Shown piece by piece: positions 3,430 to 31,715 of a stretch of DNA of 64,000 nucleotides. The first letter of the stretch is position 1. Every line of letters begins with the position of its first letter. A program made the position numbers and the translations under genes. This stretch comes from Streptomyces orinoci (GTDB lineage Bacteria > Actinomycetota > Actinomycetes > Streptomycetales > Streptomycetaceae), in assembly GCF_003121295.1 (NCBI RefSeq), contig NZ_PHNC01000006.1, positions 310,001-374,000 of the forward strand. Direction: 5' to 3'. The notes below the pieces were generated by a model. The model was not told the DNA's origin and made no database searches. It saw only the letters and a list, made by a program, of their open reading frames with translations.

Positions 3430-4647
3430 TCAACGAATCTGCATCCCCGACACACTCCGCGCGATCACCAGCCGCTGAATCTCGCTGGTGCCCTCGAAGA
3501 TGGTGTAGATGGCCGCGTCCCGGTGCATCCGCTCCACCGGATATTCGCGGGTGTAACCGTTGCCGCCGAGGATCTGCATCGCCTGGGCGGTCACGGACTT
3601 GGCGGTTTCGCCCGCGAAGAGCTTGGACATCGAGCCCTCGGCGGCGGTGAACCGCTTGCCCGTGGTGGCCATCCAGGAGGCGCGCCAGACCAGCAGGCGG
3701 GCGGCGTCGATGCGGGTGCGCATATCGGCGAGCTGGAAGGCGATGCCCTGGTTGTCGATGATCGGGCGGCCGAACTGGACGCGGGTCCTGGCGTAGTCCA
3801 GGGCGACCTCATAGGCGGCGCGGGCGATGCCCACCGCCTGGGCGCCGACCGCCGGGCGGGAGGCCTCGAAGGTGGCCATGGCGGCGTTGCCGCCGCGGCC
3901 GCCGGTGCCCTCGCGGGCGCGGGCCAGCCGCTCGTCCAGCTTCTCCTTGCCGCCCAGCAGGCAGTGGCCGGGCACCCGTACGTCCTCGAGCACCACCTCG
4001 GCGGTGTGCGAGGCGCGGATCCCGTGCTTCTTGAACTTCTGGCCCTGGGACAGCCCGGGCGTGCCCGGCGGAATGATGAAGGAGGCGTGGCCCCGGGCGC
4101 CCAGGCCCGGTTCCACGACGGCCACCACCACATGGACATTGGCTATCCCGCCATTGGTGGCCCAGGTCTTGGTGCCATTGAGCACCCATTCGTCCTTGGC
4201 CTGGTCGTAGACGGCCCGGGTGCGCATCGCGGAGACATCGGATCCGGCGTCGGGTTCGGAGGAGCAGAAGGCGGCCACCTTCACCTCCCGGGCGTCGCCG
4301 TACATCTGCGGGATCCAGGTGCCGATCTGCTCGTCCGTACCGTTGGTGAGGACGCCCACCGCGGCCAGCCCGGTGCCCGCGATGGCCAGCCCCAGGCCGG
4401 CATCGCCCCAGAACAGCTCCTCCAGGGTCATCGGGATGCCCAGCCCGGTGGGGTCGAAGAACTGCTGGGCGTAGAAGTCCAGCGAATACAGGCCGATTTT
4501 GGCCGCCTCCTGGACCACCGGCCAGGGGAATTCCTCGCGTTCGTCCCATTCGGCGGCCGCGGGGCGCATGACATCGGCGGCGAAGCCATGGATCCAGTCC
4601 CGGACGGCCTTCTGGTCGTCGTTGAGATCCAGCGCGAACGGTGTCAT
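3430..4647 (-). CDS. Acyl-CoA dehydrogenase
   Basis: This 405-residue flavoprotein has the three acyl-CoA dehydrogenase domains: an N-terminal helical region, the middle beta domain (AAFCSSEPDAGSDVSAMRTRA and WVLNGTKTWATNG) and the C-terminal helical domain. It ends with the RMHRDAAIYTIFEGTSEIQ segment that carries the catalytic Glu in medium-chain-type enzymes. It should oxidise an acyl-CoA to the trans-2-enoyl-CoA using FAD and pass electrons to electron-transfer flavoprotein. Chain-length preference cannot be read from the sequence. It is divergent from a TetR regulator across about 145 bases containing a palindrome, which suggests fatty-acid-responsive repression. Confidence 0.95.
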   Translation of the reverse strand: MTPFALDLNDDQKAVRDWIHGFAADVMRPAAAEWDEREEFPWPVVQEAAKIGLYSLDFYAQQFFDPTGLGIPMTLEELFWGDAGLGLAIAGTGLAAVGVLTNGTDEQIGTWIPQMYGDAREVKVAAFCSSEPDAGSDVSAMRTRAVYDQAKDEWVLNGTKTWATNGGIANVHVVVAVVEPGLGARGHASFIIPPGTPGLSQGQKFKKHGIRASHTAEVVLEDVRVPGHCLLGGKEKLDERLARAREGTGGRGGNAAMATFEASRPAVGAQAVGIARAAYEVALDYARTRVQFGRPIIDNQGIAFQLADMRTRIDAARLLVWRASWMATTGKRFTAAEGSMSKLFAGETAKSVTAQAMQILGGNGYTREYPVERMHRDAAIYTIFEGTSEIQRLVIARSVSGMQIR

Positions 4648-4675
4648 CTGCCCCTCCCGGCCCCACTTACTTGCG

Positions 4676-4693
4676 GTAACATGAGTCTGTTAC
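4676..4693. promoter_or_regulatory. Inverted repeat between acyl-CoA dehydrogenase and tetR, likely operator
   Basis: GTAAC and GTTAC form an inverted repeat with an 8-base spacer in the short divergent promoter region. Position and symmetry fit binding of the adjacent TetR-family protein, which would control both genes. No experimental support is implied. Confidence 0.55.
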
Positions 4694-4792
4694 TCGTCAG
4701 TAGGGCATGTCAACTCCCCCAACCCGGTGGACTGCTGCCCGTCCGCCGGGTGTTACTTTGCGTTGGCGTCGAGCGAATGACATGGGGCGCGC

Positions 4793-5461
4793 ATGACAGG
4801 GGCGGGGAGGCACCAGATGGAGACCAGTCACCGGGAAGGCCAGCAGCGGGCGGCCGAACGGCGGCGCAGGGAACTGCTGGAGGCCGCGGACCGGGTGGTG
4901 CTCCGGGACGGGCCGGGCGCGTCGATGAACGCCATCGCCGCCGAGGCGGGCATCACCAAGCCCATTCTCTACCGGCACTTCGGCGACAAGGGCGGCCTCT
5001 ACCGGGCGCTGGCGGTGCGGCACACCGACGCCCTGCTGTCGGGCCTGCGGGCCGCGCTGGACGCACCGACCGGGCGGCGGGAGCGAGTTGAGAAGACGCT
5101 GGACACCTATCTGGCCGCCATCGAGGCGCGGCCCCAGGTGTACCGCTTCCTGATGCACCCCGCCGACGAGGGCCAGCCGGCCGAGCAGGGCTTCGATGTG
5201 GGCCGTCACTCCGCCCCGTTGCTGCGCAGGATGGGCGAGGAGCTGGCGGTGGTGATAGCCGAGCGGGTCGATCTGGGCCCGGACGGCGACGGACTGGCCC
5301 GCGCCTGGGGCCATGGCATCGTCGGCATGATGCATGCCGCGGGCGACTGGTGGCTGCGTGAACGCCCTTGCCCGCGCGGCCAGTTGGTCAGCCACCTGGC
5401 CGACCTGCTGTGGGGGCGGCTGGCCGCCTCGGGCGATCTGGCGGGCGGGCCGGGGTTCTAG
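4793..5461 (+). CDS. TetR-family transcriptional regulator
   Basis: The 222-residue protein has a TetR-type helix-turn-helix at about residues 25-70 (LEAADRVVLRDGPGASMNAIAAEAGI, ILYRHFGDKGGLYRAL) followed by a helical ligand-binding domain. It may start at ATG 4793 or at METSHREG (4817). Divergent placement from the acyl-CoA dehydrogenase and the palindrome between them suggest that it represses that gene and itself, with an acyl-CoA as the likely effector. The effector is inference. Confidence 0.9.
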   Translation: MTGAGRHQMETSHREGQQRAAERRRRELLEAADRVVLRDGPGASMNAIAAEAGITKPILYRHFGDKGGLYRALAVRHTDALLSGLRAALDAPTGRRERVEKTLDTYLAAIEARPQVYRFLMHPADEGQPAEQGFDVGRHSAPLLRRMGEELAVVIAERVDLGPDGDGLARAWGHGIVGMMHAAGDWWLRERPCPRGQLVSHLADLLWGRLAASGDLAGGPGF

Positions 5462-5536
5462 AACCGACGGCCGGCGGCACGCCTTCGGGGGCGTACCTCG
5501 CGTACGAACTTCAGGGCCGTACCTCGCGTATGTACC

Positions 5537-6091
5537 TCAGGACCGTACGGCGCCTCCGGCCCATGGCGCGCGCCGCGCCGCCCGCAGCGCCCGGCGCCGC
5601 CGCAAACCGGTCAACCGGTCGGTGAAGAGCCCGCCGTCCAGGTGGTCGCACTCATGCTGAAGGCAGCGCGCGAAAAACCCGGTGCCCTCGACCCGCACCG
5701 GGGTGCCGTCCATGGTGAAACCCTCCACCACGGCCTCGTCGAAGCGCTCGGTGCCCGCCTCGATTCCCGGCAGCGACAGACAGCCCTCCGGACCGCGCAC
5801 CCGGAGCCCGCCGGTGTGCACCAGGCGGGGATTGACCAGGTGTCCGAGGTGCCGGCGGTCCTCGTCGTCCGGGCAGTCGTAGACGAACACCCGCAAACCC
5901 ACTCCGATCTGATTGGCGGCGAGGCCCACCCCCCGGGCCGCGTACATGCTGGCGAACATCGACTCCACCAGTGCGGCCAGGTCGTCGTCGAAGGCGGTGA
6001 CCTCCGCACAGGGCGTGCCCAGCATGGAATCCCCGAGCAGCCGCACCGGCCGCACTGGTCCCAATCCGCCGGGAATCGAGCGTTTGCGCAT
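5537..6091 (-). CDS. def: Peptide deformylase
   Basis: This 184-residue enzyme removes the formyl group from N-formylmethionine of new proteins. The three deformylase motifs are intact: GVGLAANQIG (about 55-63), EGCLSLPG with metal-ligand Cys104, and QHECDHLDG with His146, catalytic Glu147 and His150. The frame is open far upstream, but conserved sequence begins at MRKRSIPGG, so I place the start at ATG 6091. Streptomyces usually carry several def paralogues, so this need not be the only one. It stands alone, divergent from murT. Confidence 0.93.
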   Translation of the reverse strand: MRKRSIPGGLGPVRPVRLLGDSMLGTPCAEVTAFDDDLAALVESMFASMYAARGVGLAANQIGVGLRVFVYDCPDDEDRRHLGHLVNPRLVHTGGLRVRGPEGCLSLPGIEAGTERFDEAVVEGFTMDGTPVRVEGTGFFARCLQHECDHLDGGLFTDRLTGLRRRRALRAARRAPWAGGAVRS

Positions 6092-6257
6092 ACGGGCAAC
6101 CCTACGTTCCCACGACGGCAGGTTCGGGCCCACGGCCGGAGCTAGATAGGCTGAGCCCCGACCGAAGCCTCCTGGCTGGCGATTCGGCGCGGAGGGGGGC
6201 GTTCCAGCGTACGGACCAGGACAGGCTCGGCGCCGGATGCAAGGAGGATCTAGGACG

Positions 6258-27475: not shown

Positions 27476-27763
27476 TCAGTGCCCGGCGGGGTTTCCGGGG
27501 TCGCGGTGCTCGGCGGCGATCCCGAACCGGCGGCGCTCACCGGGAGCGGAGGACAGGGACCGTACCGTGGAGACCGTACTGATCACCTGCTCCTCGGCGC
27601 TCTCCCGGCTCTCCTCCAGCCGTTGCAGGTCGGCGGCGGACACCAGGGCGACCAGCGGCTTGCCATGGCGGGTGACGACCACCCGCTCACCGCCGTACAC
27701 CACGCGGTTGATCAGCTCCGCCAGCTCGGCTCGGGCTTGCGTCACCGGAATCTCATAGGCCAT
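27476..27763 (-). CDS. Phd/YefM-family antitoxin, apparently orphan
   Basis: The 95-residue protein has the Phd/YefM DNA-binding fold (EIPVTQARAELAELINRVVYGGERVVVTRHGKPLVALVSAADLQRLEE) and a variable C-terminal tail. Such antitoxins repress their operon and neutralise a RelE- or Doc-like toxin. No toxin gene lies next to it: downstream is the ure promoter and upstream is the lectin gene's end. It may be a solitary regulator or a remnant. The C-terminal tail is unusually long and arginine/glycine-rich. Confidence 0.85.
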   Translation of the reverse strand: MAYEIPVTQARAELAELINRVVYGGERVVVTRHGKPLVALVSAADLQRLEESRESAEEQVISTVSTVRSLSSAPGERRRFGIAAEHRDPGNPAGH

Positions 27764-27825: not shown

Positions 27826-28536
27826 TCAGGGAGTCAGCACCCACTTCTGGTTGGGCAGGCCATTGCAGTCCCAGATGCCCAGCTGAGTGTCGTTGTCGGT
27901 GCTGAAGCCGAGATCGTCCAGGCACTTGCCGGTCAGTACGTTCTTCAGCGAACCGTCGTCCTGGGGAATCCACTGCTCGCCCGGGGACCCCACGCAGTCG
28001 TAGATCTCCACCTTGGTGCCGTTCTCACTGCGGCCCCAGACCACATTGAGACACATGCCCAGGGCGCGCACCGAGTGGTCCACGCCCAGCGTCCACCACT
28101 GGGCGGCGGTGCCATTGCAGTCGTGGATCTGGACGGCGTTGGCGAGCTTGGCCCGTCCATGGCGCACATCCACGCACTTGTCGCCATAGCCGACCAGCCG
28201 GCCCTGCCGGCCGGCCACCCCCACCACCACCGGGCGGATGGTCTTGGTGGCCCAGGAGTGCGGATAGCCGCAGAGGGCGGATGAAGTGCCGTTGCCGGTG
28301 ACCACATTGCCGGTGGCCCAGTAGGTGACCGGCTGGTCGCCGATGAGGTAGAAGCAGGCCACCTGGGCCTGCCACATGGTGCCTTCGGGCACCTCGGTAC
28401 AACTGGCGAAGGCGGCCGGGCCCTCATGGTGGGTGGTGCAGTTGCCGGGTGCGTCGGCCCGGGCGGTGGCGGGCAGGGCGATCGCCCCCAGGACCGCCAG
28501 CAGTGCCGTCAGTAACGCGGCGGCGGTACGTCTCAC
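27826..28536 (-). CDS. Secreted protein with ricin-type beta-trefoil lectin domain
   Basis: The 236-residue precursor has a signal peptide (RRTAAALLTALLAVLGAIALPATARA) and a C-terminal ricin-type trefoil from about residue 105, with the three Q-x-W type motifs AQWW, GEQW and NQKW and paired cysteines (CVDVRHG, CLNVVWG, CLDDLGF). The N-terminal ~80 residues (CTTHHEGPAAFASCTEVPEGTMWQAQ) have four cysteines and no domain I recognise. It should bind a sugar polymer outside the cell; no catalytic module is seen. Confidence 0.88.
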   Translation of the reverse strand: MRRTAAALLTALLAVLGAIALPATARADAPGNCTTHHEGPAAFASCTEVPEGTMWQAQVACFYLIGDQPVTYWATGNVVTGNGTSSALCGYPHSWATKTIRPVVVGVAGRQGRLVGYGDKCVDVRHGRAKLANAVQIHDCNGTAAQWWTLGVDHSVRALGMCLNVVWGRSENGTKVEIYDCVGSPGEQWIPQDDGSLKNVLTGKCLDDLGFSTDNDTQLGIWDCNGLPNQKWVLTP

Positions 28537-28705
28537 GGTGGTGCTCCTTCCGTTCGGGGATTGACGGTCGGGCTCTCAAACCGACTGGCAGCCTGCTGGA
28601 CCCGCCGCCCCCTGTCAACTGCCGTGAAGAAATTATCCTGTTCATTCATTTCAGCTGAGATCATCGGGCGTCGGATACCATGCCGGTACGAACGGAGGTG
28701 GGGCC

Positions 28706-29134
28706 GTGTCGGAGGCCGGGACCCAGTCACTGGCGGAGCGGATAGAGACTCTCTTCCGGACGGTCCGCCGCCCGGACCGTTCCGCGTACAGCAACGAGGA
28801 AGTGGCCAGGGCCTGCCGCGAGTCCAGCGGCGAGACCTTCTCCGCCACCTACCTGTGGCAGCTGCGCACCGGCCGCCGGGACAACCCCACCAAACGCCAT
28901 CTGGAAGCGCTGGCCGCCTTCTTCCAGGTGCCGGTGGCCTACTTCTTCGACGACGCGGAGAGCGGCCGCATCGCCGAGGAGATCGCCCTGCTCTCGGCGA
29001 TGCGCGATGCGGGGGTACGCGATGTCGCCCTGCGCGCGGTCAGCCTCTCCCCCGACGGCCTGGGCACGGTACGCGACCTGATCGACTCCATCGCCCGCCG
29101 CGAGGCCGAGCGGCGCGGCTCAACCCGCCGATGA
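28706..29134 (+). CDS. XRE-family DNA-binding regulator
   Basis: The 142-residue protein starts at GTG 28706 with GGAGG upstream. It has an N-terminal helix-turn-helix of XRE type (YSNEEVARACRESSGETFSATYLWQLRTGRRDNPTKRHLEALAAFFQVPVAYFF, quoted as the region 28-80) and a helical C-terminal half. Its stop overlaps the start of the ImmA-like gene (ATGA). Together with the next two genes it forms a translationally coupled operon, in which the peptidase may cleave this or another regulator. Confidence 0.85.
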   Translation: MSEAGTQSLAERIETLFRTVRRPDRSAYSNEEVARACRESSGETFSATYLWQLRTGRRDNPTKRHLEALAAFFQVPVAYFFDDAESGRIAEEIALLSAMRDAGVRDVALRAVSLSPDGLGTVRDLIDSIARREAERRGSTRR

Positions 29135-29613
29135 CCCATGGCCCCTGGGCCCGGTGGCGGCTGCTGCGCCGCTGCCGGGCCCGCGCCGCCTCGCTGGAGC
29201 TTCCGGTGCCCTTCGACGCGGCCGGACTGGCCACTCTGGTCGCCGAACGCCGCGGCCGGCCGGTGGAGTTGATGCCCATCGACTGGCAACCCGGCCTGCC
29301 CTGCGGTCTGCTGGTGAGCGCCGGACAGGCCGACTACATCGTCTACGCGGCCGACACCCCGCCGCTGCACCGGCAGCACATCCTGGTCCACGAACTGGCC
29401 CATCTGCTGTGCGAACACCACGGCGCCCCCTCCGCCGGGCTGCTGCCCCATCTCTCGCCGGACCTGGTGGGCCGGGTCCTGGGACGGACCGTCTACAGCG
29501 AACCCCAGGAGCAGGAGGCCGAGTTGCTCGCCTCACTGATCCTCCAGCGCGCGGTGTGGTCCGGGCCGGTACCGCCCGCGGACCCCTTCCTCGGCCCGGC
29601 GGCCCATGACTGA
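29131..29613 (+). CDS. ImmA/IrrE-family metallopeptidase-like protein
   Basis: The 160-residue protein has the zinc-peptidase motif HELAH at residues 87-91 (HILVHELAHLLCEHH) preceded by a beta-rich domain (DYIVYAADTPPLHRQ). ImmA/IrrE proteins cleave XRE-type repressors. ATG 29131 overlaps the stop of the XRE gene by 4 bases and the gene end overlaps the next start by 8 bases, so all three are made together. Its probable substrate is the XRE partner, but this is inference. Confidence 0.85.
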   Translation: MTHGPWARWRLLRRCRARAASLELPVPFDAAGLATLVAERRGRPVELMPIDWQPGLPCGLLVSAGQADYIVYAADTPPLHRQHILVHELAHLLCEHHGAPSAGLLPHLSPDLVGRVLGRTVYSEPQEQEAELLASLILQRAVWSGPVPPADPFLGPAAHD

Positions 29614-30664
29614 AACCCTCCCCTACCTCGGCGGGCTCGCCCTGCTGGCCCTCGGCGCCCACCGCTGGGCCGCGCTGCGCGGCGGACGCCCCGAGCCCGC
29701 CCTGCGCCAGGCCCACCGCTTCGCCTTCTGTCTGGGCGCCGCCCTGCTGGTACTGGCTCCGGCCACCGCCCGGGCGATCGAGCACACAGTGGCCCTGCCC
29801 GGCCTGCCCATGCTGCTCGGTGACCTGCTGCGCACCCTGGCGGCCGGCTGCCTGGGCCTGCTGGCCGGCCGCTCGGTGAAGCGGTCGGCGCCGGCGACCG
29901 GACTGACCCTGCTGGCCCTGACCACCCTCTTCGCGGCCACCCCCCTGCACCACGCCACCGGCGAACTCTCGGTGGACACCCGCCACCGTCCCCTGCTGGC
30001 CTGCTATGACCTGCTGCTGATCCTCTATCCGGCCGGGCAGCTGACGGCCCTGCGCCGGACGCTCCGCGACCGCACCCGGCGGGCCCGGCCCGGCGTCCAC
30101 CGCCTGGGCCTTCGCCTGCTGGGCGCGGCCACGGTGGCCGGACTGGTCTGGACGGCCTGGGGCGTTGACGATGTCCGCCTCGCCCTGACCACCGGCCGGC
30201 AGAGCGACGGCGATGACGCCCTCTCCACGGCCCTGGGCCTGCTCTGCGCGGCCCTGGCCGTGGCCGGCGGCAGCGCGGCGGTATGGCCACGGCTGCGCCG
30301 GTGGTGCTGGTCCTGCCGCACCTACCGGGCACTGACCCCGCTGTGGTCCGCCCTGCACCAGGCTTTCCCGCAGATCGCCCTGCCGCAACTCCACCCGCGC
30401 GGCGTCCACTTCGCCCTCTACCGGCGGGTGATCGAGATCCACGACGGCCTGCTGCTCCTCCGCCCTCGCCTGGCCGCCTGCGACCGGTCCGGCCCGGACA
30501 CCGCGGCCGCCACCGCCGCGCGGATCGCCGCCGCCCTGTCGGCACCGCCCGCCACGGCCGGGTCCCCGCCCGGCCGGGTCGCCCTGGCGGCCACCATGGG
30601 AACCGCCGCGGCCGCTTCCCAACTGGAGGAAATCTCCCGGGCGTTCGCCCGCCTGCACCACTGA
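29606..30664 (+). CDS. Seven-TM MAB_1171c-family protein with C-terminal DUF6545-like domain
   Basis: The 352-residue protein has about seven hydrophobic helices in its first 235 residues (for example LGGLALLALGAHRWAAL, AFCLGAALLVLAPA, LLACYDLLLILYPAGQL and ALGLLCAALAVAGGSAAVW). A cytoplasmic C-terminal domain follows (PLWSALHQAFPQIALP, HFALYRRVIEIHDGLLLLRPRL). Databases call the family a putative transporter, but no transport motif is evident and a seven-helix receptor-like layout is equally possible. It is third in the XRE-ImmA operon, a gene order seen repeatedly in actinobacteria. The function is unknown. Confidence 0.8.
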   Translation: MTETLPYLGGLALLALGAHRWAALRGGRPEPALRQAHRFAFCLGAALLVLAPATARAIEHTVALPGLPMLLGDLLRTLAAGCLGLLAGRSVKRSAPATGLTLLALTTLFAATPLHHATGELSVDTRHRPLLACYDLLLILYPAGQLTALRRTLRDRTRRARPGVHRLGLRLLGAATVAGLVWTAWGVDDVRLALTTGRQSDGDDALSTALGLLCAALAVAGGSAAVWPRLRRWCWSCRTYRALTPLWSALHQAFPQIALPQLHPRGVHFALYRRVIEIHDGLLLLRPRLAACDRSGPDTAAATAARIAAALSAPPATAGSPPGRVALAATMGTAAAASQLEEISRAFARLHH

Positions 30665-30732
30665 CCGCGTGATCCCTCCGGGGAACCGGCACCCCCGTTG
30701 ACTTCCGGCCGGCCATGCATCATGATCACCGA

Positions 30733-30749
30733 ATGTACATCCTGTACAT
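30733..30749. promoter_or_regulatory. Perfect palindrome before clpP, likely operator
   Basis: ATGTACATCCTGTACAT is a 7-base perfect inverted repeat with a 3-base spacer, 35 bases before the clpP start. It is AT-rich against the surroundings, so it stands out as a binding site. The regulator is not encoded next to it. Confidence 0.6.
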
Positions 30750-30783
30750 TTTTCATAGATGACTCGCCCCGAGTGAGGTGCCC

Positions 30784-31404
30784 ATGAACCGTCTCACCGC
30801 CCGTCATGTCCTCCCCGAGTTCACCGAGCGCACCAGTTCCGGAGTGCGCACCCTGGACCCCTACGCCAAGCTGCTCGCCGAGCGGATCGTGATGCTGGGC
30901 ACGCCCATTGACGACATCGCGGCCAACGATGTGATGGCGCAGCTGATTCATCTGGAGCACGCCGCGCCGGAGCGGGACATCTCGCTCTACATCAACTCCC
31001 CCGGCGGCTCCTTCTCCGCCATGTGCGCCGTCTACGACACCATGCGCTTCATCGGCTGTGAGATCGAGACGGTCTGCCTGGGGCAGGCCGCCTCCGCCGC
31101 GGCGGTGCTGCTGGCGGCGGGGACGCCGGGGAAGCGGGCGGTGCTGCCGCACGCCCGGGTGCTGATCCACCAGCCATTCCTGGCCGAGCCGGTGCAGGGG
31201 CAGCCGTCCGATCTCGCCCTGCACGCGGAGGAGTTGCTGCGCACCCGGGACGGCCAGAACGAGATGCTGGCCCGGCACACCGGGCAGGACCGGGCGCGGA
31301 TCGAGGCGGACACCGAGCGGGACACCGTGTTCGACGCGGCCGCGGCGGTGGCCTATGGGCTGGCGGACCGGGTGGTGGAGAGCCGCAAGTGGGGTGCCAG
31401 GTGA
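30784..31404 (+). CDS. clpP: ATP-dependent Clp protease proteolytic subunit (accessory paralogue)
   Basis: The 206-residue protein has the ClpP fold with an intact catalytic triad: Ser104 ([11 protein letters not shown]), His129 (ARVLIHQP) and Asp180 (DTERDTVF), plus NSPGG. ClpP subunits form barrels that degrade proteins fed by Clp ATPases. The gene is not next to a second clpP, clpX or popR, so it is not the usual clpP1P2 or clpP3P4 operon; it resembles the extra single clpP of Streptomyces. Its stop overlaps the next start (GTGA). Confidence 0.93.
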
Positions 31405-31715
31405 GCGGGTTGCTGCCGGAGCTGCCACCGCTGCCGGGGCTGACGCGGGCGGAGGGGGAGCTGGTGGACCGCTATCTGGAGGTACTGGATCTGCTGGGCC
31501 GGATCAATCCGGCCCGCGGGCGGGACACGTACCAGGGGCTACGAGCGGCGCAGGCGCTGGTGGTCGCGGCCAAAGGGCTGTGCGGGGCGCTGACGCTGAT
31601 GTACGAACGAGGTGAACGGAAGGTGTACGCGGGCACCTTGGCGCGGGCGATGCGCGTCCTGGACGGTGAGCGCCGGGCGGGCCGGGTGATGTTGCCGCCG
31701 CCATCGGCGAGTTGA
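31401..31715 (+). CDS. Unknown protein co-transcribed with clpP
   Basis: A 104-residue protein starts at GTG 31401, overlapping the clpP stop. It is mostly helical ([55 protein letters not shown], described here as residues 17-75). It has no signal or membrane segment and no domain I recognise. Tight coupling suggests that it works with the ClpP, perhaps as an adaptor or substrate, but that is inference. Confidence 0.75.

Follow-up and report, generated by a model that had tools for sequence, protein, structure and literature searches.

An EspR-type regulator, an ImmA-like peptidase and a seven-helix membrane protein as a candidate membrane-to-DNA signalling module in Streptomyces orinoci

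How could a signal at the cell membrane reach a DNA-binding protein? The question is raised by a three-gene operon of Streptomyces orinoci in a stretch of 64,000 nucleotides (contig NZ_PHNC01000006.1, positions 310,001 to 374,000; hereafter the window) of a 7.5-Mb genome. The genes code for an XRE-type DNA-binding protein, a putative zinc peptidase of the ImmA/IrrE type and a seven-transmembrane (7TM) protein. ImmA-type proteases are known mainly as switches of the DNA-damage response or of mobile elements. This role is covered in part in the accessible sections of PMC2701414. In the initial annotation, the operon was read as a chain: the membrane protein senses something, the peptidase is switched on and the repressor is cut. 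The layout was described correctly, with all genes on the + strand, overlaps of 4 bases (ATGA) between the XRE and peptidase genes and of 8 bases between the peptidase and 7TM genes, and a HELAH motif at residues 87-91 of the peptidase; the proposed chain found support in part. A second copy of the module in the same genome has an identical order and is followed by a cytochrome P450 gene. With moderate confidence, we regard the 7TM protein as a membrane receptor that gates an ImmA-like protease controlling an EspR-type regulator.

The XRE protein belongs, as judged from its sequence, to the EspR family. The likeness extends over the helix-turn-helix (HTH) and the C-terminal dimerisation region: residues 5-133 aligned to residues 4-131 of EspR (PDB 3r1f; phmmer 2.7e-21), and a profile of 46 XRE relatives matched the solved EspR structures with 3.6e-40. 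EspR is both activator and repressor according to the accessible part of PMC3315491. The cutting of a repressor is therefore not the sole possible outcome; the output of the module may be activation or repression.

The membrane protein scored 173.7 bits against the model of the MAB_1171c family (NF042915; curated cut-off 100) and is a member of this family. Hydropathy averaged over the family alignment showed seven peaks, whereas the window protein alone gave 3 to 6 segments at different thresholds. An outer N-terminus and an inner C-terminus are favoured by the loop charges, which places the DUF6545 domain inside. The seven-helix protein with a cytoplasmic domain was thereby borne out as a prediction. 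Besides M1, seven alignment columns were conserved to at least 90 %; six of them lie in DUF6545 (L243, P245, L246, I278, D280 and A304), the other is G221. A Pfam scan of the protein revealed no transporter domain over the cut-off, a match to Cyt_bd_oxida_II (E 0.042) being below it, and the NCBI label 'putative transporter' is the sole hint of transport. Comparison of the 7TM profile with the PDB gave no credible match.

The catalytic motif of the peptidase is well preserved. HExxH was retained in 121 of the 123 peptidases of the module loci. In 49 relatives E127 was invariant and E131 was conserved to at least 90 %, and one of these two residues is likely the third zinc ligand. With HELAH, E127 and E131 the window peptidase has the HExxH motif and the downstream acidic ligand of the M78 family. 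Three other proteins of the genome exceeded the Pfam M78 cut-off (loci L228, L229 and L230), all with a loss of HExxH; a same-genome M78 match was useless as a comparison for the peptidase profile because these matches lack the motif.

The gene order was surveyed in 122 loci, consisting of the window, the relatives L003 and L004 and 120 fetched regions minus one (L169) that was contained in another (L083). These loci hold 134 7TM genes. An ImmA-like gene was present within 600 bp upstream of 115 of them. In 112 cases the peptidase gene was directly upstream on the same strand, with overlapping genes in 77, and all three genes were contiguous in 66 cases, among them 14 of the 22 fetched loci that lie outside the genus of the window. 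Given these frequencies for the peptidase-7TM pair and the whole trio, the linkage is not a product of chance, and the conserved order looked for after the initial annotation recurs well beyond close relatives. The 7TM family was detected in at least 48 of 61 genomes of the genus, in 37 of 197 genomes of the class at E 0.001 (26 over the cut-off) and in 9 of 100 genomes of the phylum, of which two, both of the window's genus, were over the cut-off. The two named relatives found were Streptomyces. Distances among peptidases and among 7TM proteins were correlated with a Mantel r of 0.85 over 112 pairs, compared with a maximum of 0.07 among 500 permutations, and r was 0.60 once close relatives (distance up to 0.5) were dropped. 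Such a co-divergence is expected for co-inherited partners.

EspR-type XRE genes accompany the 7TM genes in position and in genome content. Among the matches listed for the window's genus, 78 of 107 EspR-type XREs were located within 4 kb of a 7TM gene, while random placement would yield 0.45; by the same matches, 46 of the 61 genomes had both genes, two the XRE alone, two the 7TM alone and 11 neither. For the 197 genomes of the class the corresponding numbers were 35, 6, 2 and 154 (Fisher 3.5e-30, relatedness ignored). Both genomes with the 7TM alone in the class were weak matches (E 2.4e-4 and 4.0e-4). Among the six with the XRE alone, G207 does carry a 7TM gene that was missed by the family model, and G124 and G140 belong to a genus, labelled G063, in whose separate survey they also had no 7TM.

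This G063 genus, whose EspR matched PDB 3r1f with 2e-67, probably corresponds to Mycobacterium in a broad sense. EspR was found in 117 of the 118 genomes, the 7TM protein in 62 and the peptidase in exactly the same 62. In 60 of these 62 genomes the 7TM gene is a direct neighbour of the espR orthologue and lies on the other strand; 59 are strictly tail to tail according to the match coordinates, and the spacing is 0-133 bp apart from a single case of 392 bp. The other two genomes are G579, with espR and the 7TM gene on separate contigs, and G535, with the espR homology in two pieces. A HExxH peptidase was present in all 12 fetched loci with a 7TM gene, and a peptidase beside espR was absent from all 8 fetched espR loci without it. 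M. tuberculosis presumably belongs to the group with espR and without the 7TM gene. In the G535 locus (L204), the two espR pieces are about 1.5 kb apart and the adjoining peptidase and 7TM genes are intact.

Building on the gene order, the overlaps, the catalytic residues, the EspR homology, the co-occurrence, the co-divergence and the hydropathy topology, we infer that the 7TM protein controls the peptidase and that the EspR-type protein is the target of the latter, with a proposed signal and proposed responding genes at the two ends of the chain. At the membrane, the seven-helix protein would sense a ligand or state, and its cytoplasmic DUF6545 domain would hold or activate the ImmA-like peptidase. 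Once active, the peptidase might cut or otherwise remove the EspR-type regulator, so that the module would signal across the membrane through regulated proteolysis. The change in the regulator could then alter how the operon and an adjacent output gene are expressed; the latter may be the fourth enzyme gene in many relatives and a divergent lectin gene in the window.

Several results weigh against this receptor-protease-regulator chain. The curated Pfam score for M78 was missed by the window peptidase (18.1 bits, cut-off 22; E 0.0025), for which reason the protein is named ImmA-like, and only 21 of the 49 peptidase relatives reached an E of 0.01. In the PDB the peptidase profile matched no solved IrrE or ImmA structure, only M48 peptidases weakly; the protein would be at best a divergent M78 peptidase. 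AlphaFold models had mean predicted local distance difference test (pLDDT) values of 42.1 for the peptidase (alignment rows of the window and L003) and 40.1 for the 7TM protein (alignment rows of the window, L003 and L004), so that no inter-protein contact was readable from them. No reading frame in the 122 loci fuses any two of XRE, peptidase and 7TM. Co-divergence is also a product of plain co-inheritance. A seed hidden Markov model detected no EspR-type XRE in 29 of the 122 loci, of which 16 belong to a 7TM lineage with flavin adenine dinucleotide (FAD) enzymes, two are disrupted (an insertion in L004, a contig end in L135) and three yield an XRE at a looser threshold (L127, L159 and L184). 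Finally, 14 of the 29 XREs far from any listed 7TM gene were fetched, and eight of them had a peptidase gene directly beside them but no intact 7TM gene; seven were free of any 7TM match and one (L220) showed a short 7TM-like remnant. The parts of the module are separable, and cross-talk among loci within one genome is possible.

Stand-alone pairs of an EspR-type XRE and a peptidase without a 7TM match were observed in L213-L217, L225 and L226, at a site that looks equal to the locus holding the 7TM gene in L155, L163 and L178 from other species. In L004 (Streptomyces morookaense, positions 4400-6100), a transposase-like gene, by eye apparently of the IS605 TnpB type, replaces the XRE and peptidase genes, and the 7TM gene is without its 5' end.

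The XRE is the most loosely coupled member of the module. Peptidase and 7TM protein might form the working unit, with an XRE that merely regulates transcription of the operon and a peptidase whose substrate is the 7TM protein, the fourth enzyme or another target. The tighter contiguity of the peptidase-7TM pair in comparison to the trio (112 versus 66 of 134) agrees with this view, as do the 29 loci without a local EspR-type XRE and the other loci in which the XRE gene is convergent or located downstream of the module. However, EspR-type XRE and 7TM co-occur by genome and position far above chance, and the XRE-peptidase pairs without an intact 7TM gene link the peptidase also with the XRE. We consider such a two-protein unit unlikely.

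A fourth, variable gene beside the trio, for which the initial annotation had proposed a survey, was present in many relatives and absent in the window. For each of the 134 modules, it was defined as the next gene on the same strand within 260 bp and labelled by BLAST clusters and a Pfam scan; the scan took 74 of the 77 non-module fourth genes and left out the clpP gene of the window and two short proteins. FAD oxidoreductases were most frequent (21), followed by P450 (13), PAP2-like membrane proteins (11), amidohydrolases (7) and amidases (6). Rarer were TPR-like proteins (3) and aldo-keto reductases, SDR and thiamine-binding proteins (2 each). The remaining next genes were unrelated singletons (10, one of them the clpP of the window), a second 7TM (8), an XRE (7) or a further peptidase (2), and 40 modules had none. 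At 1e-5, Pfam supported 13 P450, 7 amidohydrolases and 6 amidases, but FAD_binding_3 was found in just 13 of the 21 FAD oxidoreductases. The PAP2-like label is weak, with one member at 1e-5 and two single scans of 9.9e-5 and 8.8e-4 below the Pfam cut-off, as is the TPR-like label (best 0.022 in the one scanned). The fourth gene overlaps the 7TM gene in all six amidases and in nine of the 11 PAP2-like genes. Placed on a 7TM tree, the labels required 36 changes in contrast to 87 after shuffling (quick tree, long branches, no bootstrap); in view of this clustering, most fourth genes track the 7TM lineage. Four changes were needed for P450, four for PAP2-like and ten for FAD genes.

The prevalence of small-molecule enzymes among the fourth genes would also suit a role in detoxification or resistance: the 7TM protein would bind or transport a small hydrophobic compound that is modified by the fourth enzyme, and the XRE-peptidase pair would switch the operon on. 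A MAB_1171c mutant of M. abscessus formed roughly half as much biofilm as the parent and showed lower minimum inhibitory concentrations (MICs) of clarithromycin and cefoxitin (PMC8707978, accessible part), but the same clarithromycin value was recorded for 9 of 12 mutants of that MIC group, which points to an unspecific effect. Furthermore, such an enzyme is not encoded directly downstream in the window or in the four mycobacterial espR loci with called neighbours (L069, L078, L084 and L188), and the Pfam scan of the 7TM protein yielded no transporter domain over the cut-off. Detoxification is thus an improbable function of the module.

The module was also encountered in a record deposited as Mycobacterium phage Adler (KC960489; flagged UNVERIFIED_ORG, 95.7 kb, circular, from M. 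abscessus). An EspR-like XRE, a peptidase, a 7TM protein (110.2 bits) and a P450 (5.9e-74) are encoded consecutively (L235, 3471-7084), with gene overlaps of 1, 4 and 8 bases. In the annotation of this record the XRE alone bears a functional name. A toxin-antitoxin-like or mobile defence module, retained via addiction or phage exclusion, is very improbable: up to 11 copies per genome among the matches listed, peptidase relatives on 145 and 7TM relatives on 26 of 72,556 plasmid records, the Adler record and the prediction of XRE-COG2856 pairs as toxin-antitoxin systems by Makarova and colleagues (PMC2701414, accessible part, where three conserved combinations of XRE repressor and membrane protein were set aside) would be in line with it, but the constant site next to espR (60 of 62 genomes) has the look of vertical inheritance, and PADLOC gave a weak likeness to capH and capP alone, with no other defence gene among five proteins.

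The surroundings of the operon were inspected for mobile elements and for genes that may respond to the regulator. Seven neighbours between 27.5 and 34.7 kb were scanned, and no mobile-element gene was among them. For 49 further proteins of the window (62 genes called), one IS605 OrfB was the sole mobile Pfam family in the best 25 of 66 families. A PHROGs scan of the window gave transposase families only (best 25 of 26), and no tRNA gene was present in the window. The divergent lectin, probably secreted as judged by eye from its N-terminus, is a candidate regulated gene (Table 1) and is also a neighbour of the module in L003 and L137. The gap between both transcription units contains the palindrome ATTTCAGCTGAGAT, which is found as a perfect 14-bp version in L003 and as an 8-bp core in L137; a pattern derived from it matched once in 64 kb, with 0.10 matches expected. 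CAGCTG-centred palindromes upstream of the XRE gene were seen in three groups, namely the window with L003 and L137, seven similar loci, and L079, while most of the 93 XRE upstream regions showed none. They give a weak hint of a putative operator. In the seven similar loci (L129, L130, L134, L140, L142, L143 and L154), the perfect palindrome GCCACAGCTGTGGC is located about 95 bp before the XRE gene and has a CAGCTG centre like that of the window.

Table 1 Features of the module and its upstream region (positions in the window)
Feature	Position	Strand	Description
EspR-family XRE regulator	28706..29134	+	GTG start, 142 aa; HTH and C-terminal region, alignment spans nearly the whole EspR
ImmA/IrrE-like zinc peptidase (putative)	29131..29613	+	ATG start, 160 aa; HELAH at 29389-29403; ATGA overlap with the XRE gene
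MAB_1171c-family seven-helix membrane protein	29606..30664	+	ATG start, 352 aa; predicted N-out/C-in
C-terminal DUF6545 domain of the 7TM protein, predicted cytoplasmic	30299..30649	+	residues 232-348; PF20182 3.3e-24
Ricin-B-type lectin, candidate regulated gene	27826..28536	-	236 aa; PF00652 6.3e-23; divergent from the operon
Candidate operator	28648..28661	.	near-perfect palindrome ATTTCAGCTGAGAT; between the lectin and XRE genes, 44 bp ahead of the XRE start

Downstream of the operon, clpP (30784-31404) was rejected as the fourth gene of the window: it follows after 119 bp, has its own promoter-like site and is not beside the module in L003, L004 and L137. The clpP-like gene (PF00574, 5.1e-66) is preceded by this promoter-like site at 30698-30726 and by an inverted repeat, ATGTACA-TCC-TGTACAT, at 30733-30749, and is followed with a 4-base overlap by an orphan gene of 104 aa (region 30698-31715). 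A Phd/YefM-type antitoxin gene (27476-27763; PF02604, 1.4e-14) has urease-like reading frames on one side and the lectin gene on the other.

An ImmA-type protease wired to a seven-helix membrane protein would, if true, be a new route from an outside signal to gene expression. The link to EspR supplies a concrete candidate controller for a well-known mycobacterial regulator whose upstream control is disputed, secretion having been proposed and later not found (PMC3315491, accessible part). A possible function for the little-studied MAB_1171c/DUF6545 family also emerges from the module, and many P450 and FAD enzymes become candidates for signal handling. Tentatively, and with more doubt than attaches to the chain itself, EspR-type regulators may form the DNA-binding end of a class of actinobacterial systems built from receptor, protease and regulator, in many cases together with an interchangeable enzyme by which the signal is made or destroyed. 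Roughly half of the sampled mycobacterial genomes have receptor and protease next to espR and the others lack both; in the latter, EspR would then be the orphan output of a lost pathway. A literature search that was thin on subscription journals and preprints revealed no publication on the three-part module, on DUF6545, on EspR together with ImmA, or on the combination of ImmA, metalloprotease, transmembrane, XRE and actinobacteria. The sole mention of MAB_1171c found, in the accessible part of PMC8707978, calls it a transporter.

Among known systems, CapH/CapP of the cyclic-oligonucleotide-based anti-phage signalling system (CBASS) is related by weak PADLOC matches, of the XRE to capH (1.7e-5) and of the peptidase to capP (0.0032). 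For the three proteins and the next two, PADLOC found no CBASS genes and, besides capH and capP, only HTH_VI (0.051) and PDC-M09B (0.05); unlike CapH/CapP, the module has a membrane partner. With ImmR/ImmA of ICEBs1 it has in common an XRE protein beside an ImmA-type HExxH peptidase. It differs from this switch by the additional membrane protein, by an EspR-like XRE and by the lack of a conjugative element among the families listed, and cleavage of its XRE is presumed. The MAB_1171c family (NF042915, DUF6545), whose curated cut-off is exceeded by the 7TM protein, is annotated as putative transporter, but its usual partners, an ImmA-like peptidase and an EspR-type XRE, point to signalling instead. 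The module XRE resembles EspR of Mycobacterium over nearly its full length (PDB 3r1f, 3qf3 and 4ndw), and espR itself adjoins the peptidase-7TM pair in nearly all 7TM-bearing genomes (60 of 62), whereas the accessible part of PMC3315491 presents EspR as a nucleoid-associated regulator with no such partners. The EspR-ImmA-7TM module is thus a candidate for a new form of XRE/ImmA control that involves a membrane partner, and for the missing controller of EspR.

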